Shown here: positions 1 to 30,672 of the stretch, piece after piece
How positions within the stretch are numbered: position 1 is the first letter of the stretch
Layout: each line of letters opens with the position of its first letter
From: Flavobacteriales bacterium
GTDB lineage: Bacteria; Bacteroidota; Bacteroidia; Flavobacteriales; UBA7312
Direction of reading: 5' to 3'
Length of the DNA stretch: 40,876 nucleotides
Assembly (NCBI GenBank): GCA_016779935.1
Contig: JADHMQ010000002.1
Span: 167,649 to 208,524 of the forward strand
Made by a program: the position numbers and the translations under genes
The notes under the pieces: model-generated
What the model saw: only the letters and a program-made list of their open reading frames with translations
Databases searched by the model: none
What the model was told of the DNA's origin: nothing

Positions 1-1008
1 ACCCGTATCTGAAGGAGTAAAACCATCATTAACAAACATAGTATCTCTACTTCCAGACTCAATAGTGTAACCGTAGCTTTCAGCATTAAACCCTTCTGAC
101 TCAATAGAAGCGTCAATTCTTATACTATCAATAACATTAAAGCCTACATTTTCTAAAATTCCACCGAAAAAGTAAGACGTTTGTGAGATTTGCTCTAGTG
201 GCATTACCCTATAGGAAGTTCCTCCAAAATATGAACTTGGCACTCTGTTGTAGCTAGTCAAAATATTTGACGAATAGGGTTGGGTTTTGATGATTTTAAC
301 ATCATCAATCATCCAAAAATAGTGTGAAGCAGTTTCAGCATCATTAGCCCAGTCGAAACGAATTTGAACACTGTCATTCAGTGCAGCCATTTCAGTAATT
401 ATAATTTCAACTTTTACGGTTCCTGATAAAACATTTACCGAGCCTAAATCATTCACTTGAAAACTGTTGGCAGCTAACCAACCGCTACCATTATTAATAA
501 AGACGGTAAGTTCATGAGATCCAGAGCAGCACCATCTATATGCATGCTCAAATGACAGCGTTACGTTTGAGTCGTTTGACAAATCTATATAAGGTGATGT
601 CAATGAACCTTTACGGTTTGAGTATGCAGCGGTTGGCAGTCCAGCATTGGAGCCATCTGCATCAAAAATCATCCATCCATTATCCGCAGATTCAGATTCT
701 AATAAGTAAGGTTCATCTCCTGCATAATCGCCATTAGATCCGTCTAAATCGTATTCCCAAACGGCACCGTCAGAACCTTGAGTAGTCCAACTTGGATCTA
801 TGGAGTTATTATTTCCGTCAAGACCTTCTCTAAAATCTTCATACCATATCACATCAGCGCTATCCGCTACAGTATTTGCTGCAGATTCTTCTAACTGATT
901 GAAATTATTGACTTTTTTTGGAGTGTTAACTATACTATTTATTTTATGCTGAGAGTATGCCGACAAACAGAAAGTTGTTGTTACAAAAAACAGTAAAATT
1001 CGCTTCAT
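1..1008 (-). CDS. Secreted choice-of-anchor J-like protein, 3' end outside window
   Basis: The reading frame opens at an ATG at 1008 and runs without a stop to the window edge, giving 336 codons. Residues 1-20 are a signal peptide (Lys-Arg, hydrophobic stretch, ending S-A-Y-S-Q). Residues ~50-240 look like the beta-rich choice-of-anchor J/MAM-like region common in T9SS cargo: an aromatic-rich start (WYEDF), repeated Asp-Gly-Asn segments and a WMIDDVKI strand near the end. Residues ~250-325 closely match the same region of the next gene (1078-2949), including FGGT-S/T-Y and PLEQ, so the two are tandem paralogs. The missing C-terminus probably carries a T9SS sorting domain, by analogy with the neighbour; this is inference. 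Substrate or ligand is unknown. A terminator at 1026-1055 separates it from the upstream paralog, so it probably has its own promoter, although I see no clear one. Confidence 0.85.
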   Translation of the reverse strand, partial: MKRILLFFVTTTFCLSAYSQHKINSIVNTPKKVNNFNQLEESAANTVADSADVIWYEDFREGLDGNNNSIDPSWTTQGSDGAVWEYDLDGSNGDYAGDEPYLLESESADNGWMIFDADGSNAGLPTAAYSNRKGSLTSPYIDLSNDSNVTLSFEHAYRWCCSGSHELTVFINNGSGWLAANSFQVNDLGSVNVLSGTVKVEIIITEMAALNDSVQIRFDWANDAETASHYFWMIDDVKIIKTQPYSSNILTSYNRVPSSYFGGTSYRVMPLEQISQTSYFFGGILENVGFNVIDSIRIDASIESEGFNAESYGYTIESGSRDTMFVNDGFTPSDTG

Positions 1009-6881: not shown

Positions 6882-8150
6882 ATGCAAAACTCGATAGAAT
6901 TTGCTTTACAATCTGATAAAACAGATGAATTGTCTGCTTACAGAGATAAGTTTCATATCCCTGCTGTTAATGGTCAATACGCACTTTATTTTACTGGAAA
7001 CTCATTGGGTTTGCAACCCAAAAGTGTCAAAACTCATTTGATGCAAGAACTGGATGATTGGGCTGAATTTGGTGTTGAAGGTCATTTTGAAGCTAAAAAC
7101 CCTTGGGTTTCTTACCATAAAATATTGAGTGAGCCTTTTGCTAAACTTGTTGGCGCTCAGCCTAAGGAAGTAGTTGCTATGAATGGCTTGAGTGTAAACC
7201 TACATTTAATGATGGTGTCCTTTTACCAACCACAAGGGAAGCGTACCAAAATTATTTGTGAGGCGAAGGCCTTTCCATCTGACCAATATGTGCTTGAAAG
7301 TCAAGTTAAATTTCATGGTTTAAAGCCAGAAGATGTAATCGTAGAAGTCAGCCCTCGAGAAGGCGAACATTGTATAAGAGAAGAAGATATTCTTTCGTGT
7401 ATTGAAGAAGTTGGTGACGAATTGGCTTTGGTATTTTGGGGCGGTGTTAATTACTATACTGGACAAGTTTTTGATATGCCAAAAATTACAAAAGTAGCTA
7501 AAGGTGTCGGTGCCTATGTTGGTTTTGATTTAGCACATGGTGTTGGAAATGTTTCTCTTGACCTTCACGATTGGGGTGTTGATTTTGCGTGTTGGTGTTC
7601 TTATAAATATTTGAACTCAGGTCCTGGCAGTGTTTCTGGCGTGTTTGTACATAGCAAACATGAAAATAATACTGATTTACCGCGCTTCGCCGGCTGGTGG
7701 GGGCATGATGAAGAGCGTCGCTTTTTGATGGAAAAAGGATTTGTTCCCATGCAAGGAGCACAAGGTTGGCAATTGTCTAATGCGGCTGTTTTTTCTATGG
7801 CACCTTGCAAAGCGAGTATGGATATTTTTGATGAGGTAGGTATGCCTAAGCTCATTGAAAAAAGCAGAAAGCTGACTAATTTCATGGAATTTATTTTCAA
7901 TGATATTTCCTCACGCTATGATAACTGTAATTTTGAAATCATTACTCCTAAAGAGGAAAAGTACAGGGGCTGTCAGTTATCGATTTTAATGCATGGGCAA
8001 GGCAAAGAAATGTTTGATTACATCACAAATGAAGGAGTGATAGCCGATTGGCGAGAACCTAATGTAATACGTTTAGCTCCCGTTCCATTATACAATAGTT
8101 TTGAGGATATTTTCAAATTAGGACAAATCATAGAAAACGCAATATCATGA
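6882..8150 (+). CDS. kynU: Kynureninase
   Basis: A 422-residue PLP enzyme of fold type I. It cleaves L-kynurenine to anthranilate plus alanine, or 3-hydroxykynurenine to 3-hydroxyanthranilate plus alanine. The family signature around the PLP lysine is clear: [12 protein letters not shown] with K242, preceded by [10 protein letters not shown], whose Asp contacts the PLP ring nitrogen. [10 protein letters not shown] near residues 38-47, GWWGH around residue 272 and the conserved C-terminal [16 protein letters not shown] are also present. Length is typical (about 415-465). The stop overlaps the kmo start by ATGA, so the two are translationally coupled. With kmo adjacent, the preferred product is likely 3-hydroxyanthranilate. 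Neither tryptophan 2,3-dioxygenase nor the 3-hydroxyanthranilate dioxygenase of NAD synthesis is in the window. Confidence 0.97.
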
Positions 8151-9484
8151 GAAAAAAAGTAACAATTGCAGGTGCTGGTCTAGTAGGCTCCTTAGAGGCT
8201 ATTTACCTCTCTAAAAAAGGCTTTGATGTAGAGGTCTTTGAGCGTAGACCAGATATGAGAAAAGTACAATTGGCAGCAGGTCGTTCAATTAATTTAGCCT
8301 TATCAACTCGTGGGTGGAATGCACTCAAAAAAGTTGGTGTAAATACTGAGGTTGAGAAAATGGCTATACCCATGTATAAAAGGGTTATGCATGCCGTTGA
8401 TGGCACTCTTACAGACCAGCAATATGGGCAAGATGGCGAAGCTATTTTTTCCGTTTCTCGTGGTGGGCTTAATCAATTGCTAATGAATTTAGCAGGTGAA
8501 CAAGACAATGTAAATATGCATTTTAATTACAGATGTAAAGATGTGGATTTACAAACAGCATCTGCCACTTTTGAGCATAAAGATGGGACAGAAAAAGTAG
8601 TGGATGCTGATATGATTATTGGTGCCGATGGCGCTTACTCTGTCATTCGTTCCAAAATGATGAAGCAAGATAGGTTTCAGTATTCACAACATTATATTGA
8701 ACATGGTTACAAAGAGTTAACCATTCCAGCTAATTCGGATGGTTCTCATAAACTTGAGGTAAATGCCTTGCATATATGGCCAAGAGGAAATTATATGCTT
8801 ATAGCCCTTCCCAACATGGACGGTAGCTTTACCTGTACATTATTCTTTCCTTTCGAAGGGGAACATTCTTTTAATAATTTAAAAACCGAAGATCAAGTTT
8901 ATAATTTCTTTAAAGAAGTTTTTCCAGACACCTTAGATTTAATACCTAATCTGGTTGAAGAGTATTTCAATAATCCGACTTCTTCTTTAGCTATTATGCG
9001 TTGTGACCCATGGGTCGTTGACGATAAAGTATTATTGATTGGTGATGCTGCACATGCTACTGTTCCATTTTATGGACAAGGTATGAACGCTGGTTTTGAA
9101 GGCTGTTTCGTCTTGGATGAATTAATGGATAAACATGGTGATGACTTTATGAGTTGTTTCAAGGAATATTCAGAAATTAGAAAACCTGATGGGGATGGCG
9201 TACAAGATTTATCATTACATAATTTTATTGTTATGCGTGATAAGACCGCCGACCCTCAATTTTTATTACAGAAAAAAATAGAACTTCAGTTTTCTAAAAA
9301 ACACCCTAAAAAATGGTTGCCTCTTTATTCGATGGTGTCGTTTAGTAATATTAGATATTCAGATGCTTGGAAAATTGGACAACATCAAGAAGAATTGATG
9401 AAAGAAATCATGAGTATTCCTAACATTGAGAACATTTGGGACAGCGAGGTAGTAGAAGAGAAGATGTTAAGCTTACTTGATTGA
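8147..9484 (+). CDS. kmo: Kynurenine 3-monooxygenase
   Basis: A 445-residue FAD- and NADPH-dependent aromatic hydroxylase that converts L-kynurenine to 3-hydroxykynurenine. The N-terminal Rossmann motif GAGLVG (residues 9-14) is followed by the acidic end of the second strand (VEVFERR). [16 protein letters not shown] is a KMO-type segment, and the FAD motif [18 protein letters not shown] begins at residue 299. The start ATG overlaps the kynU stop by 4 bases. The C-terminal ~70 residues, where eukaryotic KMO has a membrane anchor, are here soluble and charged. The gene ends overlapping a TTG start of the permease-like gene at 9481. Identity rests on both the motifs and the kynU coupling. Confidence 0.96.
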
Positions 9485-26140: not shown

Positions 26141-26524
26141 ATGCTTGTCAAAACTTATGGCTCAGCCGTTTTCGGTATAGATGCCACTACCATTACGATT
26201 GAAGTAAATGCCTCAGCTGGCATAAAATTTTTTCTAGTAGGACTGCCAGATAATGCGGTTAAAGAAAGTCATTATCGAATAGAAGCGGCACTAAAAAATA
26301 CTGGCTATCGTATTCCTGGAAAGAAGTTTATAATTAATATGGCACCTGCCGATATTAGAAAAGAAGGTTCTGCTTATGACCTTCCGCTTGCTATTGGAAT
26401 CCTAGCTTCCACACACCAAATAAAAGAAGATAAGTTAAAAGACTTTGTTACAATGGGCGAATTATCTTTAGATGGGGGGGGTACAACCCATAAAAGGAGC
26501 TTTACCAATCGCCATACAGGCTAG
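26141..26524 (+). CDS. YifB/ComM-family ATPase, N-terminal part before frameshift
   Basis: This 127-residue frame matches the start of the Mg-chelatase-like family (MLVKTYGSAVFGI, then GLPDNAVKESHYRIEAAL and GYRIPGKKFIINMAPADIRKEGS). The match holds until residues LSLDGG (111-113), where the G tract shifts the frame. The final 14 residues are out of frame and meaningless. The rest of the protein continues from 26474 in the next frame (see 26472-27680). Removing one G restores DGGVQPIKGALP and a 512-residue protein, the normal family length. It follows dsbD by 24 bases. Confidence 0.9.
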   Translation: MLVKTYGSAVFGIDATTITIEVNASAGIKFFLVGLPDNAVKESHYRIEAALKNTGYRIPGKKFIINMAPADIRKEGSAYDLPLAIGILASTHQIKEDKLKDFVTMGELSLDGGGTTHKRSFTNRHTG

Positions 26525-27680
26525 AAAAGAAGGCTTTAAGGGTTTGATTGTTCCTAAAGCAAATGCAAAAGAAGCGGCAATAGTTAATAACCTTGACGTT
26601 TATGGAATTGAAAATATTAAAGAATTAATTGATTACTTTAATGGAGAGCTTGAATTAAAACCGCTATACGTTGATACAAGAAAAGAGTTTTTTGATGCTA
26701 TTCAACAATCTGACATCGACTTTTCTGATGTGAAAGGGCAACGAAATATCAAGCGTTCATTAGAAATTGCTGCCGCTGGAGGGCATAATGTAATATTGAT
26801 AGGCCCTCCAGGTTCAGGCAAGACAATGTTGGCAAAACGAATACCTGGAATCTTACCACCACTAAGTTTGAATGAAGCTTTAGAGACTACTAAAATTCAT
26901 TCTGTTTCAGGCAGAATGTCAGACAATACCTCTTTACTCACTTCTAGGCCATTTAGATCGCCACACCATACTATTTCTGATGTAGCACTAGTAGGTGGAG
27001 GTGCATTTCCTCAACCAGGAGAAATTTCTCTTTCGCATAATGGAGTTCTTTTTTTGGATGAACTGCCTGAGTTTAAAAGAACGGTATTAGAGGTTATGCG
27101 TCAGCCTCTGGAAGATAGAGTTGTAACAATTTCAAGAGCAAAGTTTAGCGTAGACTTCCCTGCTAGCTTTATGTTAGTCGCTTCAATGAACCCGTGTCCA
27201 TGTGGATTTTACAACCATCCAGAAAAAGAATGTCTGTGTAGCCCAGGAATAGTTCAAAAATATTTAGCTAAAATTTCAGGACCATTGTTAGATAGAATTG
27301 ATTTACATGTTGAGGTAACTCCTGTAAAATTTGAGGAATTATCAAATTCATCTAAATCTGAGTCAAGTGTTGTTATTCGAGATAGGGTAATAAAAGCTAG
27401 AGAAATTCAGCAGGATAGATACTCAACTATAGATGCCATTCACTGTAATGCGCAAATTAGTCCAAAACTGATAAAAAAATATTGTGAGCTTACTGAAGAT
27501 GGTCAATCGCTTTTGAAAAAAGCAATGAAGAAATTGGAGTTATCAGCTAGGGCTTACGACCGAATTCTTAAAGTTGCACGAACAATTGCCGATTTATCGC
27601 AGTCAGAATTTATAGAAACCCCACATATTGCAGAGGCGATTCAGTTCCGTTCGCTAGATAGAAGTGATTGGGCTGGGTAA
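26472..27680 (+). CDS. YifB/ComM-family ATPase, C-terminal part after frameshift
   Basis: A 402-residue frame that opens at an accidental ATG in the GATGGG sequence. It carries Walker A GPPGSGKT at 111-118 (221-228 in the joined protein), Walker B FLDELPEF, the RPFRSPHHT loop, the NPCPCGFYNHPEKEC cysteine cluster and the C-terminal LDRIDLHVEV with helical domain. ComM, a member of this family, is a branch-migration helicase in natural transformation of Gram-negative bacteria. The two fragments together match the family across their full length. Whether the extra G is a real mutation, slippage-tolerated or a sequencing error cannot be decided here. Confidence 0.9.
   Translation: MGGVQPIKGALPIAIQARKEGFKGLIVPKANAKEAAIVNNLDVYGIENIKELIDYFNGELELKPLYVDTRKEFFDAIQQSDIDFSDVKGQRNIKRSLEIAAAGGHNVILIGPPGSGKTMLAKRIPGILPPLSLNEALETTKIHSVSGRMSDNTSLLTSRPFRSPHHTISDVALVGGGAFPQPGEISLSHNGVLFLDELPEFKRTVLEVMRQPLEDRVVTISRAKFSVDFPASFMLVASMNPCPCGFYNHPEKECLCSPGIVQKYLAKISGPLLDRIDLHVEVTPVKFEELSNSSKSESSVVIRDRVIKAREIQQDRYSTIDAIHCNAQISPKLIKKYCELTEDGQSLLKKAMKKLELSARAYDRILKVARTIADLSQSEFIETPHIAEAIQFRSLDRSDWAG
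26474..26481 (+). other. Eight-G homopolymer at the yifB frameshift
   Basis: A run of 8 G follows GAT. Seven G would keep the yifB frame, giving DGGVQP. This is the exact point where the two frames meet. Runs of this length are prone to both replication slippage and sequencing error. Confidence 0.9.
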
Positions 27681-27744: not shown

Positions 27745-28581
27745 TTAAATGTTCAGTAGTATTTCAGCTACTTTTTCTGGTTGTGAGATGTTTGGTGTAT
27801 GGCTTGAATTTATAGTAAATACTCCTTCTACTTTATCTTGGTACATAGCACGTTGGATTTCGATTGGAATCGCTCTATCTTCAGTACACTCGATATAGTA
27901 CTTTGGAATTGAACCAAAGTTCTCATCTGTAATTTCTAATTCATACATAAGCGGTGCAGATGGTTCTGGCACTATGTAAGGTTTTGCTCCATTGAATGCT
28001 TCAACTGGAATGTCATGTGCAAATGCATTTTGAATTTCTTCTTCGACAACATAAGCATATGTTTTATCATCAGATAAACGGAAATTCTCAACAGCTTTTG
28101 AGCCTTCAACACCTTGTACAGCACCAAAGAATGAGCCGCCATTTGGAAGTAAAAATGCAGTTAGGTAAACTAAGCTCTTTACTTTTTCTGGTCTCAATTC
28201 TGCTGCCCTACTTACAGTGATTCCATTGAAACTATGTCCTAATAGAATTACTGGCTCTTCTTGAGCATCAAGAATGTCAGTCACTGTTTTCACATAATTT
28301 TCCATAGTAATTTCAGCAGGGCTTGTTTTGTCATTTCCGTGACCTGGAAGATCTGGAGTAATAACGTTGTGTCCTTCAGCTCTAAGTACATTGGCTACGC
28401 CTTCCCATTGCCATGCACCTAGCCAAGCGGAATGAACTAATACATAAGTTTCTTTTTTCATTTCTTCAATTTTCATTTCGTTAGATGTGTTTTGTTCTTC
28501 CTTTGTCGCTGTTGATGAGCAACTAGCGAAAAGCATTAGCGAAAGAGTGCTAATAGTAATAATGTTTTTAAGTTTAATCAT
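27745..28581 (-). CDS. Lipoprotein alpha/beta hydrolase
   Basis: A 278-residue protein with a lipoprotein signal: hydrophobic residues 6-19, then FASC with C21 as the lipidated cysteine. An acidic/Ser-rich linker leads to an alpha/beta-hydrolase fold of the small esterase/hydroxynitrile-lyase-like (methylesterase) type: VHSAWLGAWQW, PDLPGHG, the nucleophile S117 in GHSFNG, D235 in ECTEDRAIP and H261 in NSSHTPNISQP. The triad is complete. The substrate is unknown. It is downstream of, and on the same strand as, a Crp/Fnr gene (74 bases). A promoter TTTG-N16-TAAATTTG lies in that gap, so the pair may be regulated together. Confidence 0.9.
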   Translation of the reverse strand: MIKLKNIITISTLSLMLFASCSSTATKEEQNTSNEMKIEEMKKETYVLVHSAWLGAWQWEGVANVLRAEGHNVITPDLPGHGNDKTSPAEITMENYVKTVTDILDAQEEPVILLGHSFNGITVSRAAELRPEKVKSLVYLTAFLLPNGGSFFGAVQGVEGSKAVENFRLSDDKTYAYVVEEEIQNAFAHDIPVEAFNGAKPYIVPEPSAPLMYELEITDENFGSIPKYYIECTEDRAIPIEIQRAMYQDKVEGVFTINSSHTPNISQPEKVAEILLNI

Positions 28582-28655: not shown

Positions 28656-29297
28656 TTATATTTTTTTTAGTTTTATTTTTTTAAAGTCTAATTCAACATT
28701 TCCTTTTTTCTCAAAATCCTTTAAGGTTCTTGAAACGACCTCTCTAGTTGAACCAATTTCGTTGGCTAGTTTATTATGGGAAATGTTAATTGTGTCTGAT
28801 TTTGTCTTTTCAGAGACCTTTCTAAGAAACTCTAGCAGTCGCTCATCTACTTTTTTGAAAGCCAGCTTATGAATACAGTCAAGTAAATTTTCATACTTCC
28901 CAATAAGAGTTTCGCTCATAAATTTCTGCCATGAGTGATATTTTTTCCATTCTTTGAGATTGCTTAAAGGTATTTTAAGAATTGTAGCGGTATCACTGAC
29001 TACAATAGCATTGACCAAAGCTTGATATTGTTTTTCAATAGCCACTATAGAATAAGCACAAGTTTCGAATTTACCGATTTTGTATAGAGTTACTTGTTTA
29101 TTATCAGATTCATGCCAAACCCTAATCTTTCCTTCTAGAACTATGATGAACCATTTAATAAATTGGCCTTCTCTAATTACTACATCATTTTTATGAATGG
29201 TTTCAATAATGGAAGAAGAAAATATTTCTGATTGTAGGTCACTATCCGAAAAATTATGGAAATCTATTAAATGCTTTAAGTCAGTTAGCAGTTTCAT
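28656..29297 (-). CDS. Crp/Fnr-family transcription regulator
   Basis: From the ATG at 29297 it has 213 residues. Residues ~15-130 form a cyclic-nucleotide-binding-type beta-roll (VVIREGQFIKWFIIVLEGKI). Residues ~145-213 form a winged helix with ISHNKLANEIGSTREVVSRTL as recognition helix. No iron-sulfur cysteine set is seen, so it is not an FNR-type oxygen sensor. Ligand and targets are unknown. A TTG at 29303 would add two residues. A TAnnTTTG box at 29315-29322 precedes it. The neighbouring lipoprotein hydrolase is a possible target. Confidence 0.93.
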   Translation of the reverse strand: MKLLTDLKHLIDFHNFSDSDLQSEIFSSSIIETIHKNDVVIREGQFIKWFIIVLEGKIRVWHESDNKQVTLYKIGKFETCAYSIVAIEKQYQALVNAIVVSDTATILKIPLSNLKEWKKYHSWQKFMSETLIGKYENLLDCIHKLAFKKVDERLLEFLRKVSEKTKSDTINISHNKLANEIGSTREVVSRTLKDFEKKGNVELDFKKIKLKKI

Positions 29298-29314
29298 GTT
29301 CAAGGAATTATCAT

Positions 29315-29337: not shown

Positions 29338-30096
29338 TTAAAAAAGGCTTAAATATTTTTCATAATAATCTCTGCTCTGATAATTAAGTATTGGTAAAAA
29401 TGAATCTTTTGGTATAGAGAAAAAAACAGATGAGTTTCGATCTTCATTTTTATGATTAATCACTTTGTGGTTTGTTGCCATGATTTCAGCATTGCTTATA
29501 CATTCCATTAGATAGCCATAAAATCCAATAATTTTATTTGTGGATGGAATTTCTTCCCATTTTCCTTCATTGTTTTGCAATACTAAGCCTTCTTTAATTC
29601 CATATGGGAAAATGCTAAAAAGGGACACGTCTTTATGCTCGGATAAGCGTATAATTTCATTTTTGTTTTCAATTTTTGGATAAAAATTAGTCGACACCAT
29701 ATGCTTTATATAATTCGAATGAAATGTTCTAATTGGTATGTTATTTACTAATTGAAGCATATCGATTACTTTCTCTTCAATATGTCTCACCAACTTGATG
29801 GTTTTTTTAAAAGAGTGCTCTAAATAGTGTTTAAATTCTTTGGGGTATTTATTGGTCTTGTGGAACTCAGAAAATACAAATGAATGAAGTAAATCATGAG
29901 GGTATTGGTTTGTACTGTCTTTTTGCCCTATGTAAGAATACCCATCAAAGCCATAATTATAATGCTTTTGTAGAAATTTTCCCTTGTAGTAGTCATCTTT
30001 TTGTATAAAATCAATGAATAATTTTTCAATAGGGTCTTTTTCTATGGGTTGATTTGTTTGAAAATATCCATTTTTTAGCTCTATTTGCATATTCAT
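29338..30096 (-). CDS. 2OG-Fe(II)/IPNS-like non-haem iron oxygenase
   Basis: A 252-residue protein with weak overall similarity but a complete active-site set of the isopenicillin N synthase-like dioxygenase group. The Fe(II) ligands are H154-x-D156 (SEHKDVSL) and H210 (MATNHKV), 56 residues apart as in IPNS (H214, D216, H270). R220-N-S222 (RNSS) matches the R-x-S that binds the 2OG or substrate carboxylate. The DVSLFSIFPYG, GLVLQNN, KWEEIP and IIGFYGYLMEC segments follow the family strands. The protein is shorter than the usual 300-350 residues. The substrate is unknown: it could be a small acid, peptide or lipid. Its first 12 bases overlap the divergent pnuC start; either start could be trimmed (ATG at 30090 here, TTG at 30109 in pnuC). 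Confidence 0.8.
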   Translation of the reverse strand: MNMQIELKNGYFQTNQPIEKDPIEKLFIDFIQKDDYYKGKFLQKHYNYGFDGYSYIGQKDSTNQYPHDLLHSFVFSEFHKTNKYPKEFKHYLEHSFKKTIKLVRHIEEKVIDMLQLVNNIPIRTFHSNYIKHMVSTNFYPKIENKNEIIRLSEHKDVSLFSIFPYGIKEGLVLQNNEGKWEEIPSTNKIIGFYGYLMECISNAEIMATNHKVINHKNEDRNSSVFFSIPKDSFLPILNYQSRDYYEKYLSLF

Positions 30097-30672
30097 TTTA
30101 TTGGAATTTTGGAGTTATTTTCTATCATAGAAGTTTTTGCAGTTATTTTTGGACTGATATACATATGGCTGTTAATTAAAGAGAGAATTGAGTGTTGGAT
30201 TTTTGGCATATTGGGCTCTTTATTAAGCATCTTTTTATTCGTCCATACTAAGTTGTATTCTGAGGCTATATTGTATTCTTATTATGTATTTATGGGGTTC
30301 TATGGCTATTATTTATGGAATCGGAAAGGAAAAGACGACTCCCTTTTAAGAATTAGTGATGTGAATCCAATCAATCATGTCTATTATATTTTATCATCTT
30401 GTGCAATAGCACTTTCTTTGGCTTGGTTTTTCAATGCTTATACAGATGCGGAGCGTCCATATATCGATGCCTTCACTACTATTTTTAGTTTTCTTGCTAC
30501 CTTTCTTGAAGCAAAAAAGATTTTATCTACTTGGAAATATTGGATAGTTATTAATGGAGTTACTATTGGGCTTTATATTGACAAAGGATTAGATCTTTAT
30601 GCCGGTCTTATCTTAGTGTATTTTATTATGTCTTTTGTAGGGTATTTCAAATGGAAAAACCTTATGGCTTAG
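30085..30672 (+). CDS. pnuC: PnuC-family nicotinamide/nicotinamide riboside transporter
   Basis: A 195-residue polytopic protein with about seven membrane segments. The PnuC pattern is seen: WIFGILGSLLSIFLF, LYSEAILYSYYVFMGFYGYYLW (the repeated aromatic motif) and near the end YWIVINGVTIGLYIDKGLDLYAGLILVYF. PnuC takes up nicotinamide riboside for NAD synthesis. It lacks an adjacent ATPase (thus not a core energised ECF type). Its 3' end abuts the secA stop with no gap. The start is ATG 30085, or possibly TTG 30109, which would remove the overlap with the oxygenase gene. Confidence 0.92.
   Translation: MHIHFIGILELFSIIEVFAVIFGLIYIWLLIKERIECWIFGILGSLLSIFLFVHTKLYSEAILYSYYVFMGFYGYYLWNRKGKDDSLLRISDVNPINHVYYILSSCAIALSLAWFFNAYTDAERPYIDAFTTIFSFLATFLEAKKILSTWKYWIVINGVTIGLYIDKGLDLYAGLILVYFIMSFVGYFKWKNLMA

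Follow-up and report, generated by a model that had tools for sequence, protein, structure and literature searches.

In the window analyzed here, a 40,876-nucleotide stretch of a Flavobacteriales genome (contig JADHMQ010000002.1), the gene for a compact oxygenase of the PF03171 type lies beside a gene for a PnuC-family transporter, and the two genes likewise adjoin each other in the five other genomes that carry the full-length oxygenase. The enzyme has the fold class and the conserved catalytic set of its family and belongs to a subfamily of its own, and the linked transporters form a distinct clade of PnuC proteins. The oxygenase and PnuC are likely to constitute a functional module. That the cargo of the transporter is also the substrate of the enzyme is a narrower claim, and one to which we assign even chances.

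The oxygenase gene (29338..30096, minus strand) encodes a protein of 252 amino acids, as an initial annotation of the window had it. The sole Pfam family of this protein is PF03171 (2OG-FeII_Oxy), which matches residues 132-227 with 31.2 bits (E 2.9e-7) against a gathering cut-off of 23 bits; the oxygenase copy in a related genome (G006) also exceeds the cut-off. Among solved structures, the best match by sequence is 3on7 (E 2.4e-10, residues 14-224). An AlphaFold2 model built from 17 sequences reached a mean pLDDT of 66, with residues 43-92, which include the subfamily signature described below, poorly modeled. When the PDB was searched with this model, 3on7 again came first (E 1.7e-13), followed by 3oox and then by plant and bacterial 2OG dioxygenases, with TM values of about 0.6-0.7. 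Because PF03171 is matched and 3on7 ranks best both by sequence and by fold, the predicted double-stranded beta-helix is a secure assignment; the same cannot be said of the modeled details in the N-terminal third. The initial annotation had described the protein as an oxygenase resembling isopenicillin N synthase (IPNS) and had proposed this fold as a check, and the Pfam, sequence and fold searches bear out both. NCBIfam gave no usable name for the protein. The gene almost certainly encodes a real PF03171 enzyme, for which a small-molecule or cofactor-related role is plausible.

The initial annotation had picked out a set of catalytic residues, all of which the protein has: H154-x-D156, H210 at 56 residues further on from H154, and R220-x-S222. 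H154-K-D156 (29629..29637, minus strand) holds two predicted Fe(II) ligands and H210 (29467..29469, minus strand) is the predicted third, while R220-N-S222 (29431..29439, minus strand) is the predicted anchor of the 2OG carboxylate. Both histidines, D156 and R220 are invariant in the six orthologs, the window copy included, which settles the conservation check favorably. S222 is kept in five of the six and is replaced by Ala in the G1077 copy only. In a further motif, N137-F-Y-P140 (29677..29688, minus strand), N137 and P140 are invariant and residue 139 is either Tyr or Phe; we take this motif to be the equivalent of the N-x-Y motif in plant 2OG dioxygenases. By analogy, the N-x-Y and R-x-S motifs favor the use of 2OG by the enzyme. 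The His and Asp of the HxD motif are also kept in the ~320-residue and ~280-residue relatives compared, the one exception being the viral L098, which has Asn for Asp. The full pattern, HxD-(50..60)-H-(8..11)-RxS, appeared in 24 of 20,000 shuffles of the oxygenase protein and was absent from all other non-redundant ORFs of at least 90 amino acids in the window. Since PF03171 is matched above the gathering score and orthologs keep these residues, the pattern is not a product of chance.

Six full-length members of the subfamily were found among the 1939 genomes counted as searched for the oxygenase; they come from two families of one class, mostly from draft genomes. The first ortholog, the only one found in 148 relatives, is the full-length G006 copy, which is 47% identical to the window copy and belongs to a different genus within the window's family. 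Searches of samples from the order, phylum and class with a two-row profile retrieved G1020 (E 2.3e-38), from another family of the same class, and a three-row profile run among the relatives of G1020 retrieved G1087, G1081 and G1077, from the same family as G1020. The initial annotation had called the window protein short for its family. All six members are short (241-259 amino acids, against ~320 in the ordinary relatives), so compactness is a property of the group. The further remark that the protein otherwise has little recognizable similarity holds against ordinary family members and fails within the subfamily, where identity to the window copy is 32-46% over the full length.

The densest block of invariant positions in the six orthologs is an N-terminal signature at residues 50-76 (FDGYSYIGQKDSTNQYPHDLLHSFVFS; 29869..29949, minus strand), which follows the pattern (F/Y)DGYSxxGQx(D/N)SxNQxxxDxLHSxVxS; between residues 41 and 80, 16 of 40 positions are invariant. 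This pattern is absent from the ordinary ~320-residue relatives, in keeping with the earlier suggestion of a little-known group. When the two members from the window's family were placed in a tree with 42 further family proteins, they formed a branch of their own that is very long (100/100, length 6.4) and lies outside the ~320-residue group; the tree is unrooted and has long branches, so the exact placement is unsafe. The subfamily is a bacterial one and apparently undescribed. A viral or plasmid origin was considered and rejected, as the viral contigs, phages and plasmids searched contained no subfamily member and the plasmids gave only weak matches to the general family. Viral (IMG/VR) contigs of up to 177 kb (L086-L099) encode PF03171-type oxygenases, mostly of about 256-300 amino acids, that are related to 3on7.

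The closest known protein by both sequence and fold is SO_2589 of Shewanella oneidensis (3on7), a putative oxygenase of 280 amino acids that has the PF03171-type catalytic set and is also short. However, it is only about 20% identical to the window oxygenase, lacks the signature and has a longer N-terminus. The ordinary ~320-residue Bacteroidota PF03171 oxygenases (e.g., L006-L032) share the domain, the ligands and an equivalent GY...G......D segment, but carry GQRGYxxFGxEHAKG...DLKEF where the compact subfamily has its signature. They also have about 35 more residues at the N-terminus and further insertions towards the C-terminus, are 23-34% identical to the window oxygenase over the best segment, and occupy a separate branch. 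Isopenicillin N synthase, DAOCS, the plant DOXC dioxygenases and thymine-7-hydroxylase, all of which are profile matches of the wider oxygenase alignment, have the HxD...H...RxS spacing in common with the window enzyme. IPNS-type enzymes are larger and act on other substrates, and IPNS itself, which carries out the oxidative ring closure of ACV, does not use 2OG. The window oxygenase additionally differs in that PF14226 (DIOX_N) was not detected in it at an E limit of 1, or in the two-member alignment at an E limit of 10.

The partner gene pnuC (30109..30672, plus strand) matches NMN_transporter with 162 bits and, with 88.4 bits, exceeds the 42.45-bit cut-off of TIGR01528, the equivalog for the nicotinamide riboside (NR) transporter PnuC. 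When called mechanically, the pnuC ORF starts at 30085 and overlaps the oxygenase ORF by 12 nucleotides, and to this extent the shared 5ʹ end that had been described for the two genes is correct. Alignment with the G006 ortholog makes the TTG at 30109 the probable start, which would leave 12 nucleotides between the divergent starts and no overlap. The pair is adjacent in six of six full-length members, and no full-length member without an adjacent pnuC was found among the six. Five of them (the window genome G000, G006, G1020, G1087 and G1077) have the genes head to head with likely starts 10-41 nucleotides apart, while in G1081 they form a same-strand tandem, oxygenase then pnuC, 24 nucleotides apart. 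Four different outer neighborhoods surround the pair: dsbD-comM-hydrolase-crp and secA in the window's family (G000, G006), gpsA and a peptidase-like gene in G1020 and G1077, TrkH-like and NlpC/P60-like genes in G1087, and AraC-like and Crp-like genes in G1081 (names assigned by eye, except for those tested with Pfam). The pairing has outlasted both the rearrangement of its surroundings and a change in its own orientation. The window gave no match to Rfam, where a riboswitch near pnuC might have named the cargo. No description of a PnuC-oxygenase pair was found in the literature searched, of which coverage was partial, so its absence there is not proof of novelty.

In some genomes of the window's family the oxygenase is incomplete or missing. 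G001, the closest relative of the window and a member of its genus, has 45 oxygenase codons left beside pnuC, as a result of a single deletion that joined comM codon 2 and oxygenase codon 45 at a 7-mer common to both, AATGCTT. At this 7-bp microhomology (L001 545-704, on G001 C12), comM after codon 2, the hydrolase gene, crp and oxygenase codons 46-252 were lost. An in-frame internal deletion was rejected, because the LSLF that ends the 49-residue remnant, as it does the intact protein, comes from the dsbD-comM spacer. G003 was dropped as an oxygenase-negative genome because its contigs break inside the block, with the comM start on C27 and the first 19 oxygenase codons beside pnuC on C45; the oxygenase is probably present there. 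In G007, G008 and G009, pnuC lies directly beside dsbD and persists without the oxygenase, which indicates that the transporter does not need the enzyme.

PnuC mediates facilitated diffusion of NR, which is trapped through phosphorylation by NadR (PMC7221760), and the cargoes established or proposed for PnuC homologs are NR, thiamine, riboflavin and deoxynucleosides (PMC7749635). The PnuCs used for comparison lie beside NadR-type enzymes in phages and in G002, G004 and G005, beside thiamine diphosphokinase in Bacteroides finegoldii (compare PnuT-tnr3 of B. thetaiotaomicron; PMC5613172), and beside phosphotransferases in Novosphingobium and Acinetobacter. Some non-Bacteroidota PnuCs (some in Acinetobacter) have no kinase beside them, so a kinase partner is common and not universal. 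The oxygenase-linked PnuCs of both families form one clade (100/100), inside which the PnuCs of G007-G009 also fall and which is separate from the NadR-linked PnuCs of G002, G004 and G005, which represent different genera in the family of the window. At six positions the clade is invariant and has residues that are rare elsewhere. Diagnostic of the clade are Tyr56, counted from the TTG at 30109 (codon 30274..30276, plus strand), where 12 of 12 other PnuC/PnuT sequences carry either Gln or Asn, and Glu134 (codon 30508..30510, plus strand), a position at which none of the 12 is acidic (V, M, L, T, A or G). These residues map to about Asn91 and Met174 of Neisseria mucosa PnuC in a HMMER alignment to 4qtn. 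With Tyr56 and Glu134, the window PnuC does not keep the conserved residues of the NadR-linked PnuCs, nor does it group with them. Tyr56 and Glu134 are also kept by the clade PnuCs L059, L060 and L061 of G007, G008 and G009, genomes without the oxygenase, hydrolase, crp and comM genes.

The PnuC-NadR and PnuT-thiamine diphosphokinase modules likewise combine a Pnu transporter with an adjacent enzyme for which the cargo is the substrate (PMC7221760; PMC5613172), and the window pair has this adjacency in common with them. Unlike these kinase modules, it pairs the transporter with a PF03171 oxygenase, and in its PnuC clade Tyr56 and Glu134 replace the Gln/Asn and the non-acidic residue of the kinase-linked PnuC/PnuT proteins compared. 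The adjacency of pnuC and oxygenase in every genome in which the full-length oxygenase was found suggests that both proteins probably handle the same imported compound; gene linkage alone is no proof of a shared substrate. In the mechanism we propose, the PnuC of this distinct clade would admit a small compound resembling a vitamin or nucleoside through the inner membrane, by facilitated diffusion, and the compact cytoplasmic oxygenase would then oxidize it by hydroxylation or oxidative dealkylation, the typical chemistry of the 2OG oxygenase class. The reaction would use Fe(II), O2 and, presumably, 2-oxoglutarate, held by H154/D156/H210 and R220/S222, and the N-terminal signature would probably shape the substrate pocket. 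Oxidation may make the compound usable, stop its back-leak, or both, with the oxygenase standing where other Pnu transporters usually have a trapping kinase (such as NadR or thiamine diphosphokinase). Taken as a whole, this uptake-and-conversion reading has about an equal chance of being right or wrong.

Glu134 would suit a cationic cargo. We tentatively suggest, with somewhat less than even confidence, that the module represents a new Pnu specificity class in which a dedicated 2OG oxygenase and not a kinase converts and traps the cargo, possibly for the salvage of a cationic vitamin or nucleoside analogue that is oxidatively removable (e.g., N-methylated or otherwise alkylated). Pnu transporters are studied as facilitators that rely on a cytoplasmic kinase, such as NadR for nicotinamide riboside, to achieve net uptake. 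If true, Pnu cargo would have a converting or trapping route other than such a kinase, and a vitamin-like compound with undescribed uptake and oxidation would be indicated. The PF03171 subfamily also gains a concrete substrate search, namely the cargo of the neighboring transporter. The module is easy to recognize by the signature and the two PnuC residues, and the small size of both proteins suits simple expression tests.

A genuine 2OG enzyme might instead lie beside pnuC for shared regulation only and act on a substrate other than the transporter's cargo. Such an arrangement would fit the closely spaced divergent starts in five of the six members, which force coupled expression, and the survival of pnuC alone in G007-G009. 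However, the G1081 pair is tandem and still adjacent, and the oxygenase-linked PnuCs branch as a clade apart and differ at conserved positions, which suggests chemistry shared with the oxygenase. We therefore consider regulation by itself a rather unlikely explanation of the pairing. Far less credible is the idea that the protein comes from the ordinary ~320-residue Bacteroidota family and is decaying or has lost catalysis. The protein is shorter than its relatives and evolves fast, and its gene is deleted in G001 and missing from several relatives, but the catalytic residues are invariant in the six orthologs even though identity to the window copy drops to 32%, and the two members from the window's family have their own long, fully supported branch outside the ~320-residue group. 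Decay or loss of catalysis is thus highly improbable.

Downstream of the oxygenase lie two lineage-specific neighbors identified with Pfam, a Crp/Fnr-family regulator gene (28656..29303, minus strand) and an alpha/beta-hydrolase gene (27745..28581, minus strand), the latter by eye a likely lipoprotein. The 40-nucleotide distance reported between the oxygenase and crp is correct from the crp ATG, and is 34 nucleotides from a TTG start at 29303. Small intergenic gaps and the pattern of presence in the window's family, in which G000 and G006 have all three genes and no complete copy of any was found in the other eight genomes, made the regulator and the hydrolase attractive as core partners in a Crp-regulated operon of oxygenase, crp and hydrolase. 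Yet the joint absence in G001 says little about function, because it results from one deletion that also took comM. Moreover, G058, from another family, has a homologous crp beside a hydrolase gene 67% identical to that of the window with no compact oxygenase adjoining. The four distant members have pnuC as the neighbor of the oxygenase, with no hydrolase of the window type seen next to it; G1081 has a Crp-family gene near its copy, but by eye this is of another type than the window's. The Crp/Fnr and hydrolase genes are not general partners of the oxygenase; the partnership was dropped on the evidence of the G001 junction, G058 and the four distant members, and an operon of this kind is improbable. 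The Crp/Fnr gene, to which the initial annotation had pointed as an adjoining gene, is not upheld as a meaningful partner, and the gene-neighborhood comparison that this annotation recommended identifies pnuC, to which it had given only brief mention, as the conserved partner. Its observation is confirmed overall and its interpretation is partly supported.

In the crp-hydrolase pair of G058 (L078 3354-4866), the Crp frame is only 172 amino acids long and by eye seems to be without a DNA-binding domain. In the window, a comM-like gene (26141-27680) is broken into two ORFs because a run of eight G residues (26474-26481) holds one G too many, while the copy in G006 is one intact frame of 512 amino acids; the split may be a real frameshift, a phase-variable tract or an assembly error. 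Elsewhere in the window (6882-9484), two adjacent ORFs resemble by eye a kynureninase and a kynurenine 3-monooxygenase, which may give this genome a tryptophan-to-NAD route.
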